Shown here in pieces: positions 22,239 to 32,046 of a stretch of 36,440 nucleotides of DNA. Numbering within the stretch: the stretch's first letter is position 1; the number at the start of each line of letters is the position of its first letter. Source of the DNA: Sphingomonadales bacterium CG_4_10_14_3_um_filter_58_15 (GTDB lineage Bacteria; Pseudomonadota; Alphaproteobacteria; Sphingomonadales; Sphingomonadaceae); assembly GCA_002783865.1 (NCBI GenBank), contig PFJE01000014.1, forward strand, positions 1 to 36,440, in the 5' to 3' direction. A program made the translations under genes and the position numbers. The notes under the pieces are model-generated. The model was not told the origin of the DNA. It made no database searches and was given only the letters and a program-made list of their open reading frames with translations.

Positions 22239-22417
22239 AAAAAGGGTGCATCACGGGCCGGAAATCTTTGGACAACAAGGAGGAGGGAGAAATGTTGCCC
22301 AAAAAAACATCTGCGACCCTGAATGGGGAAAGAAACTCCAACCCGCGATGCTTGTAAAGAGATAGACGCCCGCCAGCGTAAAATCGATACGGCACTTGGA
22401 CCGTATCCACGCCAATC

Positions 22418-23074
22418 CTACATTCCCGCTTCAACCGCCAGCCGGACCATGTCCGCAGCGCTGGGCACATCGAGCCGTTTCATCAGGATCGACCGGTGCA
22501 TCTTGATGGTTCGTTCACTGAGCCCCAATTCATGGGCAATCTGCTTGTTGAGCAGGCCCTTGGCGATAAATTGCAATACTTCCCGCTGCCGCTTCGACAG
22601 ATCCTTCACAATCGCCACGGCCCGCATCCGGCGCGGTTTGGCAAGGCTGGGAGAATCGCCGTCGATTTCCACTTGCGAACCGAGGAAATATTCCAGTTCA
22701 CCCTCTTCATCAAACAGCGGCGCGACCAGCACGGCGTTCTGGAAGGGCGTGCCGTCCTTCTTGTAATTCAATATCTCGACCAGGACCGATTTTTGCTGCC
22801 GCACGCCGCGCCGGATTTCTTCGGTCAACCACGGCTCGGTCGCCTCGCCGGACAGAAAGCGGCAGTTTCGGCCAATAATGAAGTCGCGGTCATAACCGGT
22901 CAGCTCCTCGAAAGCATCATTGACGGCAACAATCGGATTGTCGGCCAGTCGCGGATTGCTGATCACCGACGCGATCGGGCTTTTTTCAATCAATGCCATG
23001 ACCGATCGCTTTGGCAAATCTGACTGGGAGATCGCCACCTGGTCTTGTTCGCTGGGATTATTCTCGCGATCCAT
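22418..23074 (-). CDS. EL222-type LOV-LuxR (HTH) photoreceptor transcription factor (paralog 1)
   Basis: 218 aa; LOV core [30 protein letters not shown]...GRNCRFLSG (adduct Cys71) ...[40 protein letters not shown]; Lux[47 protein letters not shown]. Confidence 0.95.
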
Positions 23075-23280: not shown

Positions 23281-26200
23281 TCACGCGCCTTCTTCGACGG
23301 TTTTGCCTTGCCGCAGCTTTTTGAGCCGACGGGTGACCGCAAGCGGACTGCTGGTTCCACGGGCCAACAGATAATAGAATGCCGGAATGATGATGAGCGT
23401 CAATATGGTTGAAATCGCCACTCCCCATACGACAACGGTTCCAATGGCCTCCCGGCTCGCCGCCCCGGCCCCTGTCGCCAGCATCAGTGGCAAAGCGCCT
23501 GCAACAGTAGCGATGGACGTCATCAAAACAGGCCGGAAACGGCGTTTGGCGGACTCCAGGATCGCTTTTTCAAATTCCATGCCTTCATCGCGCAGCTGGT
23601 TGGCAAACTCGACGATCAATATGCCATTTTTCGCGGCAAGACCGACGAGCATGACCAGTCCGATCTGGCTGTACAGATTCAGCGTGCCGCCCATCACCGT
23701 GAGACCCAACAAACCGCCGCTAATCGCCAGCGGAACGCCCAATATGATGACCAGCGGACTGACAAAGCTCTCGAACTGGGCGGCCAGCACGAGATATACC
23801 AATATGATAGTGAAGCCGAGTACCAGCCAAATTGACCCGCCGGTTTGCCGCAAAGCCCGGCTTTGCCCTTCATAGCCTATGGCAACAACCTCGGGCAGCG
23901 TCGCCGCTTCATTGTCCAGAAACGTGAGCGCTTCACCCAGGGAATAGCCTTCACCAACCGTACCCTCCAGCGTGATCGCCCGCAATTTGTTGAACCGGTT
24001 CATCTCGCCCGCTTCGGCCCGGGTCGTCAGCGTGACAAGACCCGATAGCGGCACAAGATTATTGTCCCGCGCCCGGACATAGACATTGGCAAGATCTTCG
24101 GCGGTGACCCGGTCCTCCGGTTCCGCTTGCAGGATCACGTCATATTCCTCACCGCGATCAACATAAGTGCCGGCGTTGCGAGAGCCCATCATCGTCTCCA
24201 GCGTCCGGCCGACTTCCTGAACCGAAACGCCCAGATCCGCAGCCCTCAGCGTGTCGACATTGACCACCAGTTGCGGGCGCGTTTCCTTATAATCGGACTC
24301 CAGAGTGGCGATGCCGGGATATGCCTCGGCGGCCACGAACAGCGCGTCGCGGGCGCGGGTCAGTTCTTCATAGGTATCACCCGCAATGACGAATCGGATG
24401 GCCTCGCCGCCCCGCCCGCCAATCGTTGATCCGCCGGAGACAAAGGCTCTAGCCGATGGATAGTCTTTGAATACCCCGTTCAACGCCGACACCGTTTCCG
24501 CCGTCGTCATGTCCCGTTCGTCCCATGGCTTGAGGAACATGATCATCCGGCCAGAGGAGAAGTCCCCCGACGGACCGAAAGATCCAGGTGCGCGAAACAA
24601 GACACGCCTCAGCGGCCCGTCCTCTTCGGTAAAGGGCAGCGCCAGCTCCTCCAGATCAAACATGACCTTGACCAGCCGGTCCCAGCCCGCACCCTCGGAA
24701 ATCGACGCGCTGCCGAACATGAACCCAGTATCTTCCGGCGGCGCGACCTCGCTCTGCAGCGTTTGCAGCGCAAAAACGGCGAAGAGCGCGGCCAATCCGA
24801 AGGCGACCCCGCCAAGCAGAAACGGACGGCGGACCCAGCGGGACAATATGCTTTCATAGCCTGTGCTGGTTTGCTTGAACTTGTGGTCGACAAAGCGGCT
24901 CAATCGGGTTTCCGCGCCGCCCTTTTTCAGGATCTTGGAGCACATCACCGGGATCAGCGTGAGTGCGGTGAAGGTGGAAATGATGACAGCGACAATCATT
25001 GTGATCGCCAGCTCGCGGAACAGCAGGCCCGTTTCGCCGGGCAAAAACATCACCGGCACAAACACCGCCACCACAACCGCCGTGGTTGCGAGCACCGCAA
25101 ATCCCACCTGCCGGGCCCCTTCAAAGGCGGCAACGAGGCGCGTCTCGCCGTTTTCGATCCGGGAATAGATATTTTCCAGCACGACAATCGCGTCATCAAC
25201 AACCAGCCCGATCGCCATGACCAACGCCAGCAACGTCAGCAGGTTGATCGACAGACCAAGCAGCCAGAGCACGAAAAAGGTGCCGATAATGGAAATGGGG
25301 ACGGTTACGGCGGGAATGATAGTGGCGCGGACCGACCCCAGAAACAGATAGATGACCGCGATCACCAATATTGCCGCAAAAGCCAGCGTCTCCCAGACAT
25401 TCTCGATCGCCTTGGCAATGAAAACGCTGCTGTCGTAGCTCACCGCCAGTTGCACGCCGGGCGGCAGAAGCGGTGTGATTTCTGTGATCCGGTCCTTGAT
25501 GTCGTTCGCAACCTGGAGCTCGTTGGCGCCGGATTGGCGAATGATACCCATGCCGACACCGGGCAAACCGTTGGACCGGAAATGGGCATAGACATTTTCC
25601 GGACCCTGTTCGACCCGGGCGAGATCGCCCAGACGCAACAGCGCTCCATCAGCCGTGCGCCGGATCACCAGCGCCTTGAAATCATCGACATTGCTATAAG
25701 CTCTGGCAACCCGGACGGTTAGATTAAGGTCCGAAGATTCAACCCGGCCAGCGGGTAACTCGACATTTTCCCTCCGCAATATTTCTTCAATATCATTGGG
25801 AGATATGCCGGACGCCGCCATTTTTTCTCGATCAAGCCAGACCCGGATCGCTGGCCGAGAGGCACCGCTGGCCTGCACCCGGGCGACCCCATCAATCGAA
25901 GAAAAGCGATCAGACAACACCCGATCGGCATAGTCGGCCAGCCACAAGGGGTCCTTACCCTTGCCCGTGAGGTTGAGCCACATGAACGGACGCGCATCGG
26001 CATCCACCTTGTTGATTTCCGGCGGATCCGATTCTTCAGGCAGATTGTCCAAGGCCCCGGAGACACGGTCACGCACATCGTTCGCCGCCGCGTCGACATC
26101 GCGGTCCGGCGAGAATTCGATGGTAATGTCGGAGCGCCCGTCCCGGGACGACGAGCGGATCATTTCAATCCCCTCGACCCCGGCGACACGATCCTCCAAG

Positions 26201-26397
26201 ATCTGGGTAATACGCGATTCCACGACATTGGCAGCGGCACCGGGATAATTGACATCGACGGAAATGATCGGCGGCTCGATCGCCGGATATTGCCGCACCG
26301 GCAAGTCGAGAAAAGCGACAATCCCCGCCAGCACCAAAATCAGGCTGAGAACAACCGCGAAAACCGGCCGCTTTACCGAGACATCGGAAAGGATCAT
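23281..26397 (-). CDS. Efflux RND transporter permease subunit (HAE1-like)
   Basis: 1038 aa; SDVSVKRPVFAVVLSLILVLAGIVAFLDLPVRQYPAIEPP, two RND repeats, GLVVDDAIVVLENI. Confidence 0.95.
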   Translation of the reverse strand: MILSDVSVKRPVFAVVLSLILVLAGIVAFLDLPVRQYPAIEPPIISVDVNYPGAAANVVESRITQILEDRVAGVEGIEMIRSSSRDGRSDITIEFSPDRDVDAAANDVRDRVSGALDNLPEESDPPEINKVDADARPFMWLNLTGKGKDPLWLADYADRVLSDRFSSIDGVARVQASGASRPAIRVWLDREKMAASGISPNDIEEILRRENVELPAGRVESSDLNLTVRVARAYSNVDDFKALVIRRTADGALLRLGDLARVEQGPENVYAHFRSNGLPGVGMGIIRQSGANELQVANDIKDRITEITPLLPPGVQLAVSYDSSVFIAKAIENVWETLAFAAILVIAVIYLFLGSVRATIIPAVTVPISIIGTFFVLWLLGLSINLLTLLALVMAIGLVVDDAIVVLENIYSRIENGETRLVAAFEGARQVGFAVLATTAVVVAVFVPVMFLPGETGLLFRELAITMIVAVIISTFTALTLIPVMCSKILKKGGAETRLSRFVDHKFKQTSTGYESILSRWVRRPFLLGGVAFGLAALFAVFALQTLQSEVAPPEDTGFMFGSASISEGAGWDRLVKVMFDLEELALPFTEEDGPLRRVLFRAPGSFGPSGDFSSGRMIMFLKPWDERDMTTAETVSALNGVFKDYPSARAFVSGGSTIGGRGGEAIRFVIAGDTYEELTRARDALFVAAEAYPGIATLESDYKETRPQLVVNVDTLRAADLGVSVQEVGRTLETMMGSRNAGTYVDRGEEYDVILQAEPEDRVTAEDLANVYVRARDNNLVPLSGLVTLTTRAEAGEMNRFNKLRAITLEGTVGEGYSLGEALTFLDNEAATLPEVVAIGYEGQSRALRQTGGSIWLVLGFTIILVYLVLAAQFESFVSPLVIILGVPLAISGGLLGLTVMGGTLNLYSQIGLVMLVGLAAKNGILIVEFANQLRDEGMEFEKAILESAKRRFRPVLMTSIATVAGALPLMLATGAGAASREAIGTVVVWGVAISTILTLIIIPAFYYLLARGTSSPLAVTRRLKKLRQGKTVEEGA

Positions 26398-27491
26398 GAC
26401 TCGGCAGATCCCTTTTTATCGCTGACCTTCAAGTTGTTGTCCGCAGATTTTTTCGTGTTCTTCTGTCCCGGAAGCACGGCCTTCACCGGCGAGTCATCAC
26501 GCACTTTGACGGTGCCGTCGGCGACAATTTTGGCGCCAAGCGCAATACCGCTTTTCACTTCGACCATGCCCTTGGATCGCAGACCGATATCGATAGCGGT
26601 GCGCCGGGCGATCCCCTCTTTATCAACGACAAAAACGAAATTCTGGTCGCCCTGCGCCACCAAAGCCGTTTCCGGGACCGCGAGACCGGTTCGGGTTTCC
26701 GATACAATACGCACGCTCATCAGCATGCCCGGCCTCAGCTTGCGGCCATCATTTGGCAATTTTGCCCGCACCGTCAAACTGCGCGACAGCGGGTCAACCA
26801 ATGGACTGATGTTATCAATCGTACCGAAGAAGCTCTGGTCGGGATAAGCCGCCGTTTTTGCTTCGATCACCTGGCCGGGTTTCAGCGCGCTGAGAAAATT
26901 CTCCGGCACGGTAAAATCCAGCTTGATCGCAGAAATATCGCTGATCGTGGCAATCGGACTGCCTGATGTCACTACGGTTCCGGGAGACACCGTCCGCAGG
27001 CTGAGCACGCCGTCAAACGGGGCGCGAATGACGCGATCGGAAATACGGGACCGTATCGCATTGGCATCGGCCCGAGCCGCATCACGCAAGGCGGTTTGCT
27101 GATCGACCGAAGAATTGGTGGCGAAGCCTCTTTCCTGAAGTTCGGTCAAACGATCCAGCTGCTTGCCGGCTTCGCGCGCTCTTGCGACGACCGAGCTGAG
27201 ATCAGCCGATTCTTCGCCGCTCGACAACCGCGCGATCACGGCACCGCGCCTGACCGTGGCACCATCTGCATAGGCGATGCGCTCAATGCGTTCGGTGACA
27301 GGCGACGTGATGACGGTTTGTTCATTGGCAAAAGCGGTCCCTACCGCTTCAATCTCGCTGACAAATTCGGCTTGCGTGACGGTTCCACCGACAACAACCG
27401 GTGGATCATCCCTGCCCTCGTCCCTGTCTCCGCCGCCACAAGCAGACAAGGCGATCAACAATCCCAAGAGCCAGAAACTGCGAAGCGTCAT
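26394..27491 (-). CDS. Efflux RND transporter periplasmic adaptor subunit
   Basis: 365 aa; lipobox LIALSACGG; biotinyl-lipoyl-like and HlyD-like segments; overlaps the RND permease start. Confidence 0.92.
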   Translation of the reverse strand: MTLRSFWLLGLLIALSACGGGDRDEGRDDPPVVVGGTVTQAEFVSEIEAVGTAFANEQTVITSPVTERIERIAYADGATVRRGAVIARLSSGEESADLSSVVARAREAGKQLDRLTELQERGFATNSSVDQQTALRDAARADANAIRSRISDRVIRAPFDGVLSLRTVSPGTVVTSGSPIATISDISAIKLDFTVPENFLSALKPGQVIEAKTAAYPDQSFFGTIDNISPLVDPLSRSLTVRAKLPNDGRKLRPGMLMSVRIVSETRTGLAVPETALVAQGDQNFVFVVDKEGIARRTAIDIGLRSKGMVEVKSGIALGAKIVADGTVKVRDDSPVKAVLPGQKNTKKSADNNLKVSDKKGSAES

Positions 27492-28656: not shown

Positions 28657-29151
28657 ATGTACACATTGGAGCAGCTGTCTGCGCGCGAGGAAATTCGCGA
28701 TATCCTGCACCGCTATTGCAAGGGGATTGATCGCCGCGACTGGCCGCTGGTCCGCTCCTGCTTTGCCGATGATCATGTCCACAAACATGCCGAATATGAA
28801 GGGCCGCCGGACGAGTTTATCGGTTTTGCCAGCCAGGTACTGGAACATATCCCGGGCACCCACCACTCGATCTCCAATGTCCATATCGCCCTGTCCGAAG
28901 ACGGCAACAGCGCCACCACCGAGGCCAATTTTGTCGCCTATCACTATATCGAAGCGGGCAATCCGGACTTCGCTCCCTGCCAGACCCATGGCAAAGCCAC
29001 CGACTGGATCGTCGCCGGCCGCTATTGCGACACGCTGGAACGGCGCGACGGCAGCTGGATCATCATTCGGCGCACCGCCTATCACGACTGGGAACGCGCC
29101 TCGGAAGCGACCGGTTCAGCGGTGACCGTGGGACATCATGCAGGGGGCTGA
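28657..29151 (+). CDS. SnoaL-like / NTF2-fold family protein
   Basis: 164 aa; LSAREEIRDILHRYCKGIDRRDWPLVRSCFADD ... RRDGSWIIIRRTAYHDWERASEATGSAVTVG. Confidence 0.88.
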   Translation: MYTLEQLSAREEIRDILHRYCKGIDRRDWPLVRSCFADDHVHKHAEYEGPPDEFIGFASQVLEHIPGTHHSISNVHIALSEDGNSATTEANFVAYHYIEAGNPDFAPCQTHGKATDWIVAGRYCDTLERRDGSWIIIRRTAYHDWERASEATGSAVTVGHHAGG

Positions 29152-29483: not shown

Positions 29484-30101
29484 ATGCAAACGATAAACGA
29501 AGCTCATTTTGACAATTTTTTAGGTTCGATTCAGTTCAATCCGATCGCAACAGTCATCAGTGATCCCAATTTAAGGGATAATCCCATTGTGGCGGTCAAT
29601 GACGCCTTTTGCGTGCTCACGCAATATCCACCCGAAGAAGTAGTAGGTCGAAATTGCAAATTTCTGGCAGGGGATGAAACGGAACCCTGGCTGACCGACA
29701 AAATTCGCGATGGTGTTCGTCGCCATAGCCCGGTGCTGGTGGAAATTTTGAACTATAAGCGGGATGGAACCAAGTTCAGGAATGCCGTTCTGGTCGCACC
29801 GATTTTTGATGATGGCGACATATTGCGCTATTTTCTGGGCACCCAGGTAGAATTGCCCGAAGAAAACTGGGATTTGTTCCCCAACCGCAAACGCCACGCT
29901 CGCGCACTGGTAGGCGATCTGTCCAACAGGCAGCGACAGGTACTCCAGAAAATCACACAGGGTCGGCGCACCAAGCAGATCGCGCACGAATTGTCGCTGA
30001 GTGAAAAGACAATCGAAATGCACCGTGCGCTGCTGTTTCGGAAATTGAACGCGATCAATGTTGCTGATGCCGTCCGTATCGGAATTGATGCTGGCCTCTG
30101 A
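29484..30101 (+). CDS. EL222-type LOV-LuxR (HTH) photoreceptor transcription factor (paralog 2, next to the rhodopsin)
   Basis: 205 aa; [23 protein letters not shown]...GRNCKFLAG (adduct Cys58)...EILNYKRDGTKFRNAVLVAPIFDDGDILRYFLGTQVELPEE; HTH LSNRQRQVLQKITQGRRTKQIAHELSLSEKTIEMHRALLFRKL. Confidence 0.95.
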   Translation: MQTINEAHFDNFLGSIQFNPIATVISDPNLRDNPIVAVNDAFCVLTQYPPEEVVGRNCKFLAGDETEPWLTDKIRDGVRRHSPVLVEILNYKRDGTKFRNAVLVAPIFDDGDILRYFLGTQVELPEENWDLFPNRKRHARALVGDLSNRQRQVLQKITQGRRTKQIAHELSLSEKTIEMHRALLFRKLNAINVADAVRIGIDAGL

Positions 30102-30283
30102 TTGCTGCGTTACAGGGTAAACCCCTACAGGGCTAATCCCAGCTTCTCTTTCCACGGCGAACGGCCATTGTGCCTGCCGAAAGTGGAATCCGTTAATCGG
30201 CCAAATTTGTCGCGACCGGTTTTAGAATAGAAACTTGGTTTCCAACAAAACTGTGCGCTTTCAAAGATAACAGGAGCTCTCCC

Positions 30284-31042
30284 ATGGACTTAATCACGGC
30301 ATCGCAATTTTCTCTCGTTTACAACGCTTTTTCATTCACATTTGCAACCATGGCTGCGGCCACTTTGTTTCTATGGCTGGGACGATCGCAGGTCGGGCCC
30401 GCTTATAAAACCGCATTGACCATTTCGGGTCTGGTTTGCGCAATAGCAGCCTATCACTATCTTCGGATTTTCGACAGTTGGAACGAAGCCTATGAACTGA
30501 AAGACGGCGTCTTGGTTGCAACCGGAGTCGCCTTTATCGATGCCTATCGTTATGTCGACTGGTTGCTCACCGTTCCCTTGTTGCTGATCGAACTGATATT
30601 GGTGATGCGTCTCACGCAGGCTGAAACGACATCCAAATGTCTCAAGCTTGGCTTTGCCGCTGCGCTGATGATCATGCTCGGCTATCCGGGTGAAATCGCC
30701 GACAACAACAGCACCCGCGCGCTTTGGGGCACTTTATCTGCCATTCCTTTCCTCTACATCGTTTGGGAATTGTTCAAGGGTCTCGGTGAGTCCATCGAAC
30801 GTCAGCCCGAGAGCGTTCGCAAGCTGATCAAGGATGCAAGACTGGTCACTTTTGGAGCTTGGGGTTTCTACCCGATAGTATATATGATCCCCTATACGGG
30901 TCTGGCCGGTGGAAACGTCGAGACAGCGCTCCAAATCGGCTATACTATTGCTGACGTGATTGCCAAAGTCGGCGTCGGTGTGATGATTTACGTCATCGCG
31001 GTGCGCAAATCTGCTATCGAATATCCCGAATATGCCAAATAG
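30284..31042 (+). CDS. Microbial rhodopsin, predicted outward proton pump (proteorhodopsin/xanthorhodopsin-like)
   Basis: 252 aa, 7 TM; helix C RYVDWLLTVPLLLIE (D92/T96/E103, Leu100 at the tuning position), His58 (AYHYLR), helix E ALWGTLSAIPFLYI (Gly149), helix G TIADVIAKVG (D224, retinal Lys228); AGGAG RBS upstream. Confidence 0.96.
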   Translation: MDLITASQFSLVYNAFSFTFATMAAATLFLWLGRSQVGPAYKTALTISGLVCAIAAYHYLRIFDSWNEAYELKDGVLVATGVAFIDAYRYVDWLLTVPLLLIELILVMRLTQAETTSKCLKLGFAAALMIMLGYPGEIADNNSTRALWGTLSAIPFLYIVWELFKGLGESIERQPESVRKLIKDARLVTFGAWGFYPIVYMIPYTGLAGGNVETALQIGYTIADVIAKVGVGVMIYVIAVRKSAIEYPEYAK

Positions 31043-31048
31043 AGCGGG

Positions 31049-32020
31049 TTGATGGCTAAGTTGGTTTCCCAATCGACATTGAACGACGAAAGGCGGGGCC
31101 GTCTGGCCCCGCCTTTTCTTTTCCAATCGGCTGAGCCAAAGGATCCGGGCAGTATAAGCCCGGCCATTCTCGCTCTGACGATTGTTCTGCTGTTTGCGCT
31201 CAGCCTTTCATCGGCAGCACTGCCAATGCTGATCGTATCAGCATGTGTTGCCCTGCTGGTCATCGGTTTGCCACACGGCATGTTCGATTATCTGACATTG
31301 CGTAAGGCAGGTCGTGGCAGCTGGATTAGGCTAGCTTCTTTGACCGCAGGATATTGCGGATTGGCGGCCATTGGCTTCTTGGGATGGCAGGTCGCCCCAA
31401 CATTTTCGCTGGTCGCCTTTATAGTCATCGCGATCAGCCATTTTATGGAGGACTGGGCTCCCGAAGGATCAGGGCTATTCGCCTTGGCCATGGCTATCAG
31501 CGTGATTGCCCTGCCTGCCTTATTATATTCCGCCCAGTTGTCAGCGCTTTTCATTCTCGTTGGTGGTGCCAATGCGGGCGCCATAACCGATTACATGCGT
31601 CTGGTCGCTCCGGTTTTTGGTCTCATCGCTGTCGCCAAGCTAATTATCGACTTTGGTGATGGCAAATCTGACCAAGCGTGGCGCAATCTCTTGTTGCTGG
31701 CAGCCCCATTGCTGCTCCCCCCCGGAATCGGCTTTGCCATTTTTTTCTGCCTCTATCATTCCCCGAAACATTTCGCCGCAGGCCGCCGCGATTTAATGAA
31801 TCAACATGACAAGCCTCAGGGTTTCTTTCTGTATATGTCCGTGTCATCAGCAGCAGTTGTCCTGTGTGTCCTGCTCGCCCACCCCCTCATTGCAATGTCC
31901 GAAAGATTGATTGTGACGGCGTTTCAGACGCTATCCCTATTGACGCTGCCGCACATGATGTTGCCTTATATCATGGACAAGGTGCGCAAATTCTCGACTG
32001 GGAACGCGCGGAAGAGGTGA
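31049..32020 (+). CDS. blh: Brp/Blh-family beta-carotene 15,15'-dioxygenase (retinal biosynthesis)
   Basis: Multi-TM protein with GLPHGMFDYL, ISHFMEDW, FFCLYHSPKHF, LTLPHMMLPYI His motifs; directly downstream of the rhodopsin. Start uncertain (TTG 31049 or ATG 31052); the C-terminal ~8 aa lie in a foreign remnant. Confidence 0.9.
   Translation: MMAKLVSQSTLNDERRGRLAPPFLFQSAEPKDPGSISPAILALTIVLLFALSLSSAALPMLIVSACVALLVIGLPHGMFDYLTLRKAGRGSWIRLASLTAGYCGLAAIGFLGWQVAPTFSLVAFIVIAISHFMEDWAPEGSGLFALAMAISVIALPALLYSAQLSALFILVGGANAGAITDYMRLVAPVFGLIAVAKLIIDFGDGKSDQAWRNLLLLAAPLLLPPGIGFAIFFCLYHSPKHFAAGRRDLMNQHDKPQGFFLYMSVSSAAVVLCVLLAHPLIAMSERLIVTAFQTLSLLTLPHMMLPYIMDKVRKFSTGNARKR
31092..31124 (+). terminator. 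Intrinsic terminator/attenuator-like hairpin between rhodopsin and blh
   Basis: GGCGGGGCC-GTCT-GGCCCCGCC (perfect 9-bp GC stem, 4-nt loop) followed by TTTTCTTTTCC, preceded by AAA that can extend the stem. Confidence 0.85.
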
Positions 32021-32046
32021 CGGGTTCGGCGGTGACGGGGCGTTCT
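31991..32046 (+). pseudogene. 3' remnant of a SnoaL-like gene overlapping the blh stop
   Basis: In the frame of ORF 31864-32106: ILDWERAEEVTGSAVTGRS, versus the intact SnoaL-like C-terminus HDWERASEATGSAVTVGH; several nucleotide differences fall at synonymous third positions. Confidence 0.7.

Follow-up and report, generated by a model that had tools for sequence, protein, structure and literature searches.

EL222 of Erythrobacter litoralis, for which solved structures exist (8a5r, 3p7n), has found wide use in optogenetics. Its consensus operator has been given as RGNCYWWRGNCY (PMC10521638). A review of bacterial optogenetics covers engineered uses of EL222, with no natural target mentioned in the excerpted part of its text. 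On the side of rhodopsin phototrophy, the closest described system is the gene cluster of Sphingomonas glacialis AAP5, which combines a xanthorhodopsin, blh and a blue-light photoreceptor gene; the last was labelled a 'histidine kinase', and a sensory role was proposed from it (PMC7762795). Expression of the AAP5 xanthorhodopsin was not seen in the conditions of that study (PMC7762795), and temperature and light have been described as the main expression factors for both phototrophy systems of the strain (PMC12654162). Kin4B8, Gloeobacter rhodopsin and Salinibacter xanthorhodopsin belong to the same family, proton pumps that have a fenestration glycine and can carry an antenna, but adjacency to an EL222-type regulator is not described for them in the literature searched. 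In AAP5, xanthorhodopsin production reportedly requires both light and low temperature.

We analysed a stretch of 36,440 nucleotides from Sphingomonadales bacterium CG_4_10_14_3_um_filter_58_15 (contig PFJE01000014.1; hereafter the window), in which a first-pass annotation had proposed that an EL222-like regulator tunes the expression of a neighbouring rhodopsin.

Composition of the cassette

The three co-oriented genes of that annotation were all recovered at their coordinates by open reading frames and domain profiles. The first (29484-30101, plus strand) encodes a protein of 205 residues with PAS_9 (E 1.6e-15) and GerE (E 9e-18) domains in a profile search. Its best solved relative is EL222 (PDB 8a5r/3p7n), with which it forms a gapless alignment over residues 13-205 (E ~3e-68). 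The protein consists of a LOV domain with an adduct cysteine followed by a LuxR-type HTH, within about 200 residues and with no other domain. The adduct cysteine is Cys58, as had been claimed, and is invariant in 83/83 aligned LOV-HTH proteins, as is Gln121. Thus, the regulator shares with EL222 the two-domain layout, the adduct cysteine, the glutamine and the HTH, and the published EL222 consensus matches the operator found in the window's relatives. It differs from EL222 in having Glu178 in place of a near-invariant lysine in its recognition helix (SEKTIEMHR), an altered operator, RGGGYWARYCCY, and a xanthorhodopsin as neighbour.

The second gene (30284-31042, plus strand) is indeed a rhodopsin (PF01036, E 2e-40), with the xanthorhodopsins psXR 9wfa and 3ddl and Gloeobacter rhodopsin as its best solved relatives. 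It carries the Asp92-Thr96-Glu103 motif of xanthorhodopsin pumps, the Schiff-base Lys228 and the partner His58, together with Leu99/Leu100; Asp92, Glu103 and the leucine pair are shared with the AAP5 protein. Gly149 provides the fenestration glycine that serves as a criterion for a carotenoid antenna (PMC12308411). The protein is predicted to be a green-absorbing proton pump, a fair prediction because the equivalent xanthorhodopsin of S. glacialis AAP5 absorbs at 544 nm (PMC7762795).

For the third gene (ORF 31049-32020, plus strand), the assignment as Blh, a beta-carotene 15,15'-dioxygenase, stood (PF15461, E 8e-32; TIGR03753 above cut-off), but its start did not. Position 31049 is doubtful as a start because the family profile begins only at residue 67 of the ORF, because a strong terminator-like hairpin with a U tract (31088-31117, plus strand, between rhodopsin and Blh) falls within the supposed N-terminus, and because the sister locus L065, whose rhodopsin is 98% identical, is interrupted by an indel and a stop codon in the same stretch. 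Translation probably starts 3' of the hairpin, where the first in-frame ATG, at 31226, would give a protein of 264 residues. Hairpin-forming sequence occurs at the same place in L065, L063 and L116 (folded) and in L115, L075, L124 and L035 (by eye). Across relatives the position of the rhodopsin-blh hairpin is constant and its sequence unrelated; in the lineage of the window it is terminator-like with a U tract. We had also considered a single operon running from the LOV start through Blh, but the operator past the LOV stop codon and the hairpin before Blh make it less likely.

Two features were observed at the edges of the cassette. In a 45-bp direct repeat with 80% identity (29082-29126 versus 31992-32036), the final part of a SnoaL-like gene recurs where blh ends, and the last blh codons overlap this copy; the repeat may be the trace of a rearrangement at this edge of the cassette. 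In addition, the efflux pump genes that lie between the cassette and a second, resident EL222-type gene described below (23281-27491) are absent from the corresponding place in the sister genome L065 (4522-4943). Elsewhere, the genome encodes a lycopene cyclase homolog (for beta-carotene) and reaction-centre L/M family genes (contig C105 of the source genome, G000, 38568-40235). Since these accompany the rhodopsin cassette, the source organism is likely a dual phototroph.

Recurrence of the LOV-xanthorhodopsin pair and the operator between its genes

In an even draw of 399 genomes of the same family, 29 xanthorhodopsin loci were informative, and 16 of them have a LOV-HTH gene directly upstream, either co-oriented or divergent. 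By our own estimate, chance would give about 0.01 such loci in 29. Pooling the even draw with 80 named loci gave 87 informative loci, with a LOV-HTH gene directly upstream in 51; as the surveyed sequences are related, these counts are not numbers of independent events. Chance adjacency is excluded. Thus, far from being unique or random, the neighbourhood seen in the window is recurrent, and it spans three LOV lineages and two orientations. An adjacent LOV gene is not obligatory, since 33 of the 87 loci lack one; an unlinked LOV gene is encoded elsewhere in 25 of these 33 genomes. In several such genomes (L189-L191, L193-L195 and L198, several of them Sphingorhabdus), the unlinked LOV-HTH protein has a glutamine at the recognition-helix position.

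Within the genus of the source organism, 31 of 33 genomes carry an EL222-type gene and 3 of 33 carry this rhodopsin; all three rhodopsin genomes have two EL222-type copies each. In a tree that took rhodopsin-free LOV proteins only from within the genus, and whose lineages are accordingly not claimed to be rhodopsin-exclusive, the rhodopsin-adjacent LOV proteins form three lineages, A, B and C, all apart from the resident clade of the genus. Lineage A includes the window and spans Sphingomonadaceae, Erythrobacteraceae and Caulobacteraceae, in lineage B every LOV-rhodopsin pair is divergent, and lineage C is mostly Sphingomonas. The xanthorhodopsin-LOV phototrophy unit is patchily distributed. 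Culturable relatives in which the layout occurs include Brevundimonas variabilis DSM 4737 and Sphingomonas glacialis. No plasmid-borne copy of the cassette was found; two Polymorphobacter plasmid records have a match to the rhodopsin and none to the LOV query.

The survey also bears on the S. glacialis cluster. At the two S. glacialis loci in our set, L105 and L137, the neighbour of the xanthorhodopsin is a PAS + GerE protein with no kinase domain, a LOV-HTH protein of lineage C (that of the window belongs to lineage A), and the operator is there as well. For this reason the 'histidine kinase' label is most likely a misannotation, and the AAP5 gene, judged from these two loci, most likely encodes a LOV-HTH regulator. 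It has been published that the rhodopsin could be a sensor paired in signalling with the neighbouring photoreceptor (PMC7762795). We regard this as very improbable for the window, because the neighbour at the S. glacialis loci is not a kinase, the window rhodopsin retains the pump residues Asp92 and Glu103, and the AAP5 rhodopsin was later described as proton-pumping, with light-stimulated ATP production (PMC12306673).

We then compared the sequences between the LOV and rhodopsin genes. The exact consensus RGNCYWWRGNCY is present there in 18 of 39 co-oriented loci (lineages A and C) and in 0 of 33 LOV-less loci, a difference (Fisher p 2.6e-6) that is to be taken as indicative because the loci are related. 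By lineage, it occurs in 11 of 19 loci of A and 7 of 20 of C. The operator usually lies about 4-60 bp past the LOV stop codon, inside the extended palindrome TACGGCCTAAAGGCCGTAT. A position matrix derived from lineage A only recovered sites that exceed the 99% null level in 18/18 lineage C loci; applied to the divergent lineage B, it gave no significant matches. Lineage B has a conserved motif of its own, ACATGGTATAAAGGNTAGGTTG, in the divergent LOV-rhodopsin spacer (L084, L085, L088, L090, L094, L101, L102, L108, L109 and L113), which looks by eye like the C120 operator of EL222, as quoted in PMC10521638, in reverse complement. Among the LOV-less loci, an unlinked LOV gene accompanies 6 of the 8 that keep a strong operator versus 19 of the 25 that do not, a comparison that does not discriminate.

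The spacing between operator and promoter is conserved as well. A TA dinucleotide stands at offset 20 after the 21-bp operator in 49 of 60 sequences, where random rotations reached a maximum of 14; by group, it is found in 27/28 resident, 16/17 lineage C and 6/15 lineage A sequences. At this recurrent distance from a -10-like TA, the operator would be centred near -42, as is typical of LuxR-type class II activators. The same sites could instead serve for repression of the rhodopsin promoter by the LOV-HTH protein in blue light, for example against over-pumping or for timing: the operator is near the promoter, and EL222 acts as a repressor when its operator is set between -35 and -10 (PMC9614035). 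The conserved spacing, however, puts the centre upstream of the -10 element and over the -35, which is an activator position, and repression is therefore unlikely.

In lineage C, the presumed 5' leader of the rhodopsin transcript contains an inverted repeat, GTCGCCACAGCGGC / GCCGCTGTGGCGAC (for example in L121, L117 and L140), with CTCCCTCC within it in some loci. This repeat may represent a small RNA that was captured and joined to the leader of the rhodopsin.

The altered operator and the resident EL222-type paralog

The exact consensus RGNCYWWRGNCY is absent from the LOV-rhodopsin spacer of the window; its three matches elsewhere in the window are about the chance level for so degenerate a pattern. 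At the position of the canonical operator of relatives, the window has an altered form, two tandem copies of RGGGYWARYCCY. This candidate operator, TACAGGGTAAACCCC / TACAGGGCTAATCCC (30111-30140, plus strand, with 12-mer cores at 30114-30125 and 30129-30140), begins 9 bp past the LOV stop codon, and the tandem copies are found at the corresponding position in L065 and L063. The RGGGYWARYCCY sites match the EL222 consensus at 10/12 positions, which is not significant alone (shuffle p 0.84). Between the window and L063, identity reaches 90% in the operator block and 44% in the remaining spacer, and the only exact ACAGGGNNAAYCCC sites in the genome are those of the window operator. Behind it, the weak -10-like sequence CATTGT (30166-30171, plus strand, 19 nt past the second operator copy) is a tentative promoter element; relatives have YTA. 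In L063 the TA is one base off and L065 has CATGTT, and the window does not keep exactly to the register of its relatives.

The regulators of the same three loci, window, L065 and L063, have Glu at residue 178. Of the 80 other aligned proteins, 79 have Lys there and one has Asp. We take this position to correspond to the base-contacting Lys188 of NarL. The operator change affects a mirrored half-site position, C to G on one side and G to C or T on the other. The glutamate and the altered operator are chemically compatible with a switch in DNA specificity, for which the paired operator forms would be GGCCTAAAGGCC with Lys178 and AGGGTAAACCCC with Glu178. Among 123 distinct LOV matches, Glu occurs in a single lineage (three genomes) and Asp in a single protein (L118, where the operator reading is uncertain), so that such a switch rests on essentially one event.

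The second EL222-type copy of the window is the resident gene (22418-23074, minus strand), which is 57% identical to the cassette copy and has Lys in its recognition helix. Right after its stop codon lies a near-canonical operator, TACGGTCCAAGTGCCGTATCG (22385-22405, minus strand; 11/12 versus the EL222 consensus), followed by a -10-like CTATCT (22365-22360, minus strand). The resident paralogs of the genus have an operator of this type after their own stop codons, and 7 of the 9 perfect extended-operator matches in the genus are at that position relative to a resident gene. Downstream lies a candidate small RNA (22240-22353, minus strand) that is conserved, covaries and has a CUCCCUCCUCC loop and a closing stem; its 5' end coincides with the start predicted from the -10-like element. 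The element, of about 110 nt, was found in the window and 27 further loci (28/28 genus loci examined). The loop core CCCUCCUC shows little or no variation among 24 aligned sequences, and two-sided changes that keep pairing affect 13 of the 23 pairs, above all shuffles and all slid controls. On the strand of the candidate there is no protein gene in the gap up to a convergent purN-like ORF.

Anti-Shine-Dalgarno-like CCUCC loops are known from the CcsR-type CCUCCUCC-loop small RNAs of alphaproteobacteria. The candidate has a loop of the same kind; it differs in its placement after a LOV-HTH operator and in matching no Rfam family. Beyond the genus, the model gave one weak match adjoining a LOV gene, in an untrained sequence (L155, E 6e-4), and none elsewhere in 150 family genomes (E 0.01, strict filters). 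In L149, L151, L152, L154, L155, L157 and L159, the LOV stop codon is followed by an operator-like site and then by CCTCC-rich sequence, hinting that small-RNA targets may be common for the EL222-type regulator family.

These comparisons also bear on whether the LOV-rhodopsin pair is merely co-inherited or autoregulatory, with the operator serving something else and the rhodopsin promoter independent. The inexact promoter geometry of the window and the many loci without an adjacent LOV gene would fit such a scenario. Yet the operator stands 3' of the LOV gene and points into the rhodopsin leader, the rhodopsin upstream region is shared in lineage B even with the LOV gene divergent, resident copies show a like operator before a different downstream transcript, and the adjacency is found in three LOV lineages. 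We consider simple co-inheritance or autoregulation quite improbable.

A proposed blue-light switch for xanthorhodopsin

Recurrent adjacency, together with a conserved EL222-consensus operator at a fixed promoter position, makes LOV control of the rhodopsin promoter the best reading, and it is on these two lines of evidence that the regulatory link proposed in the first-pass annotation now finds its support. We think it likely, judging from sequence comparison, that the xanthorhodopsin-blh unit is under its own LOV-HTH regulator and is activated by blue light. In the model, blue light would induce a flavin-cysteine adduct in the LOV-HTH protein and thereby its dimerisation, and the dimer would bind the operator just past the regulator's own stop codon. 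The bound protein, with the operator centred near -42 and over the -35, would then activate the xanthorhodopsin promoter in the manner of a LuxR class II activator. The hairpin probably damps read-through into blh, the product of which would supply retinal from beta-carotene. Thus, one light sensor probably governs when another light-using protein is made in these bacteria.

More tentatively, the two copies of the window could form an insulated blue-light pair, a reading that we hold possible with somewhat less than even confidence. The resident regulator, with its Lys and near-canonical operator, would act on the CCUCCUCC-loop small RNA, and the cassette regulator, with Glu178 and RGGGYWARYCCY, would have been switched to act on xanthorhodopsin only. 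In general terms, an EL222-type regulator would have its target promoter right behind its own gene, and xanthorhodopsins would have been placed there repeatedly.

Xanthorhodopsin is thereby a concrete and testable candidate for a natural target of an EL222-type regulator, complete with operator and promoter geometry, and the small RNA in the same window is a second one. If the Lys-to-Glu change and the operator change do constitute a specificity switch, the two copies would offer a naturally occurring orthogonal pair of EL222-type proteins with which blue-light control could be multiplexed. The 'histidine kinase' reading behind the sensory-rhodopsin hypothesis is corrected as most likely a misannotation. 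For the sphingomonads themselves, the arrangement may explain how rhodopsin phototrophy is tied to light, including in a likely dual phototroph.
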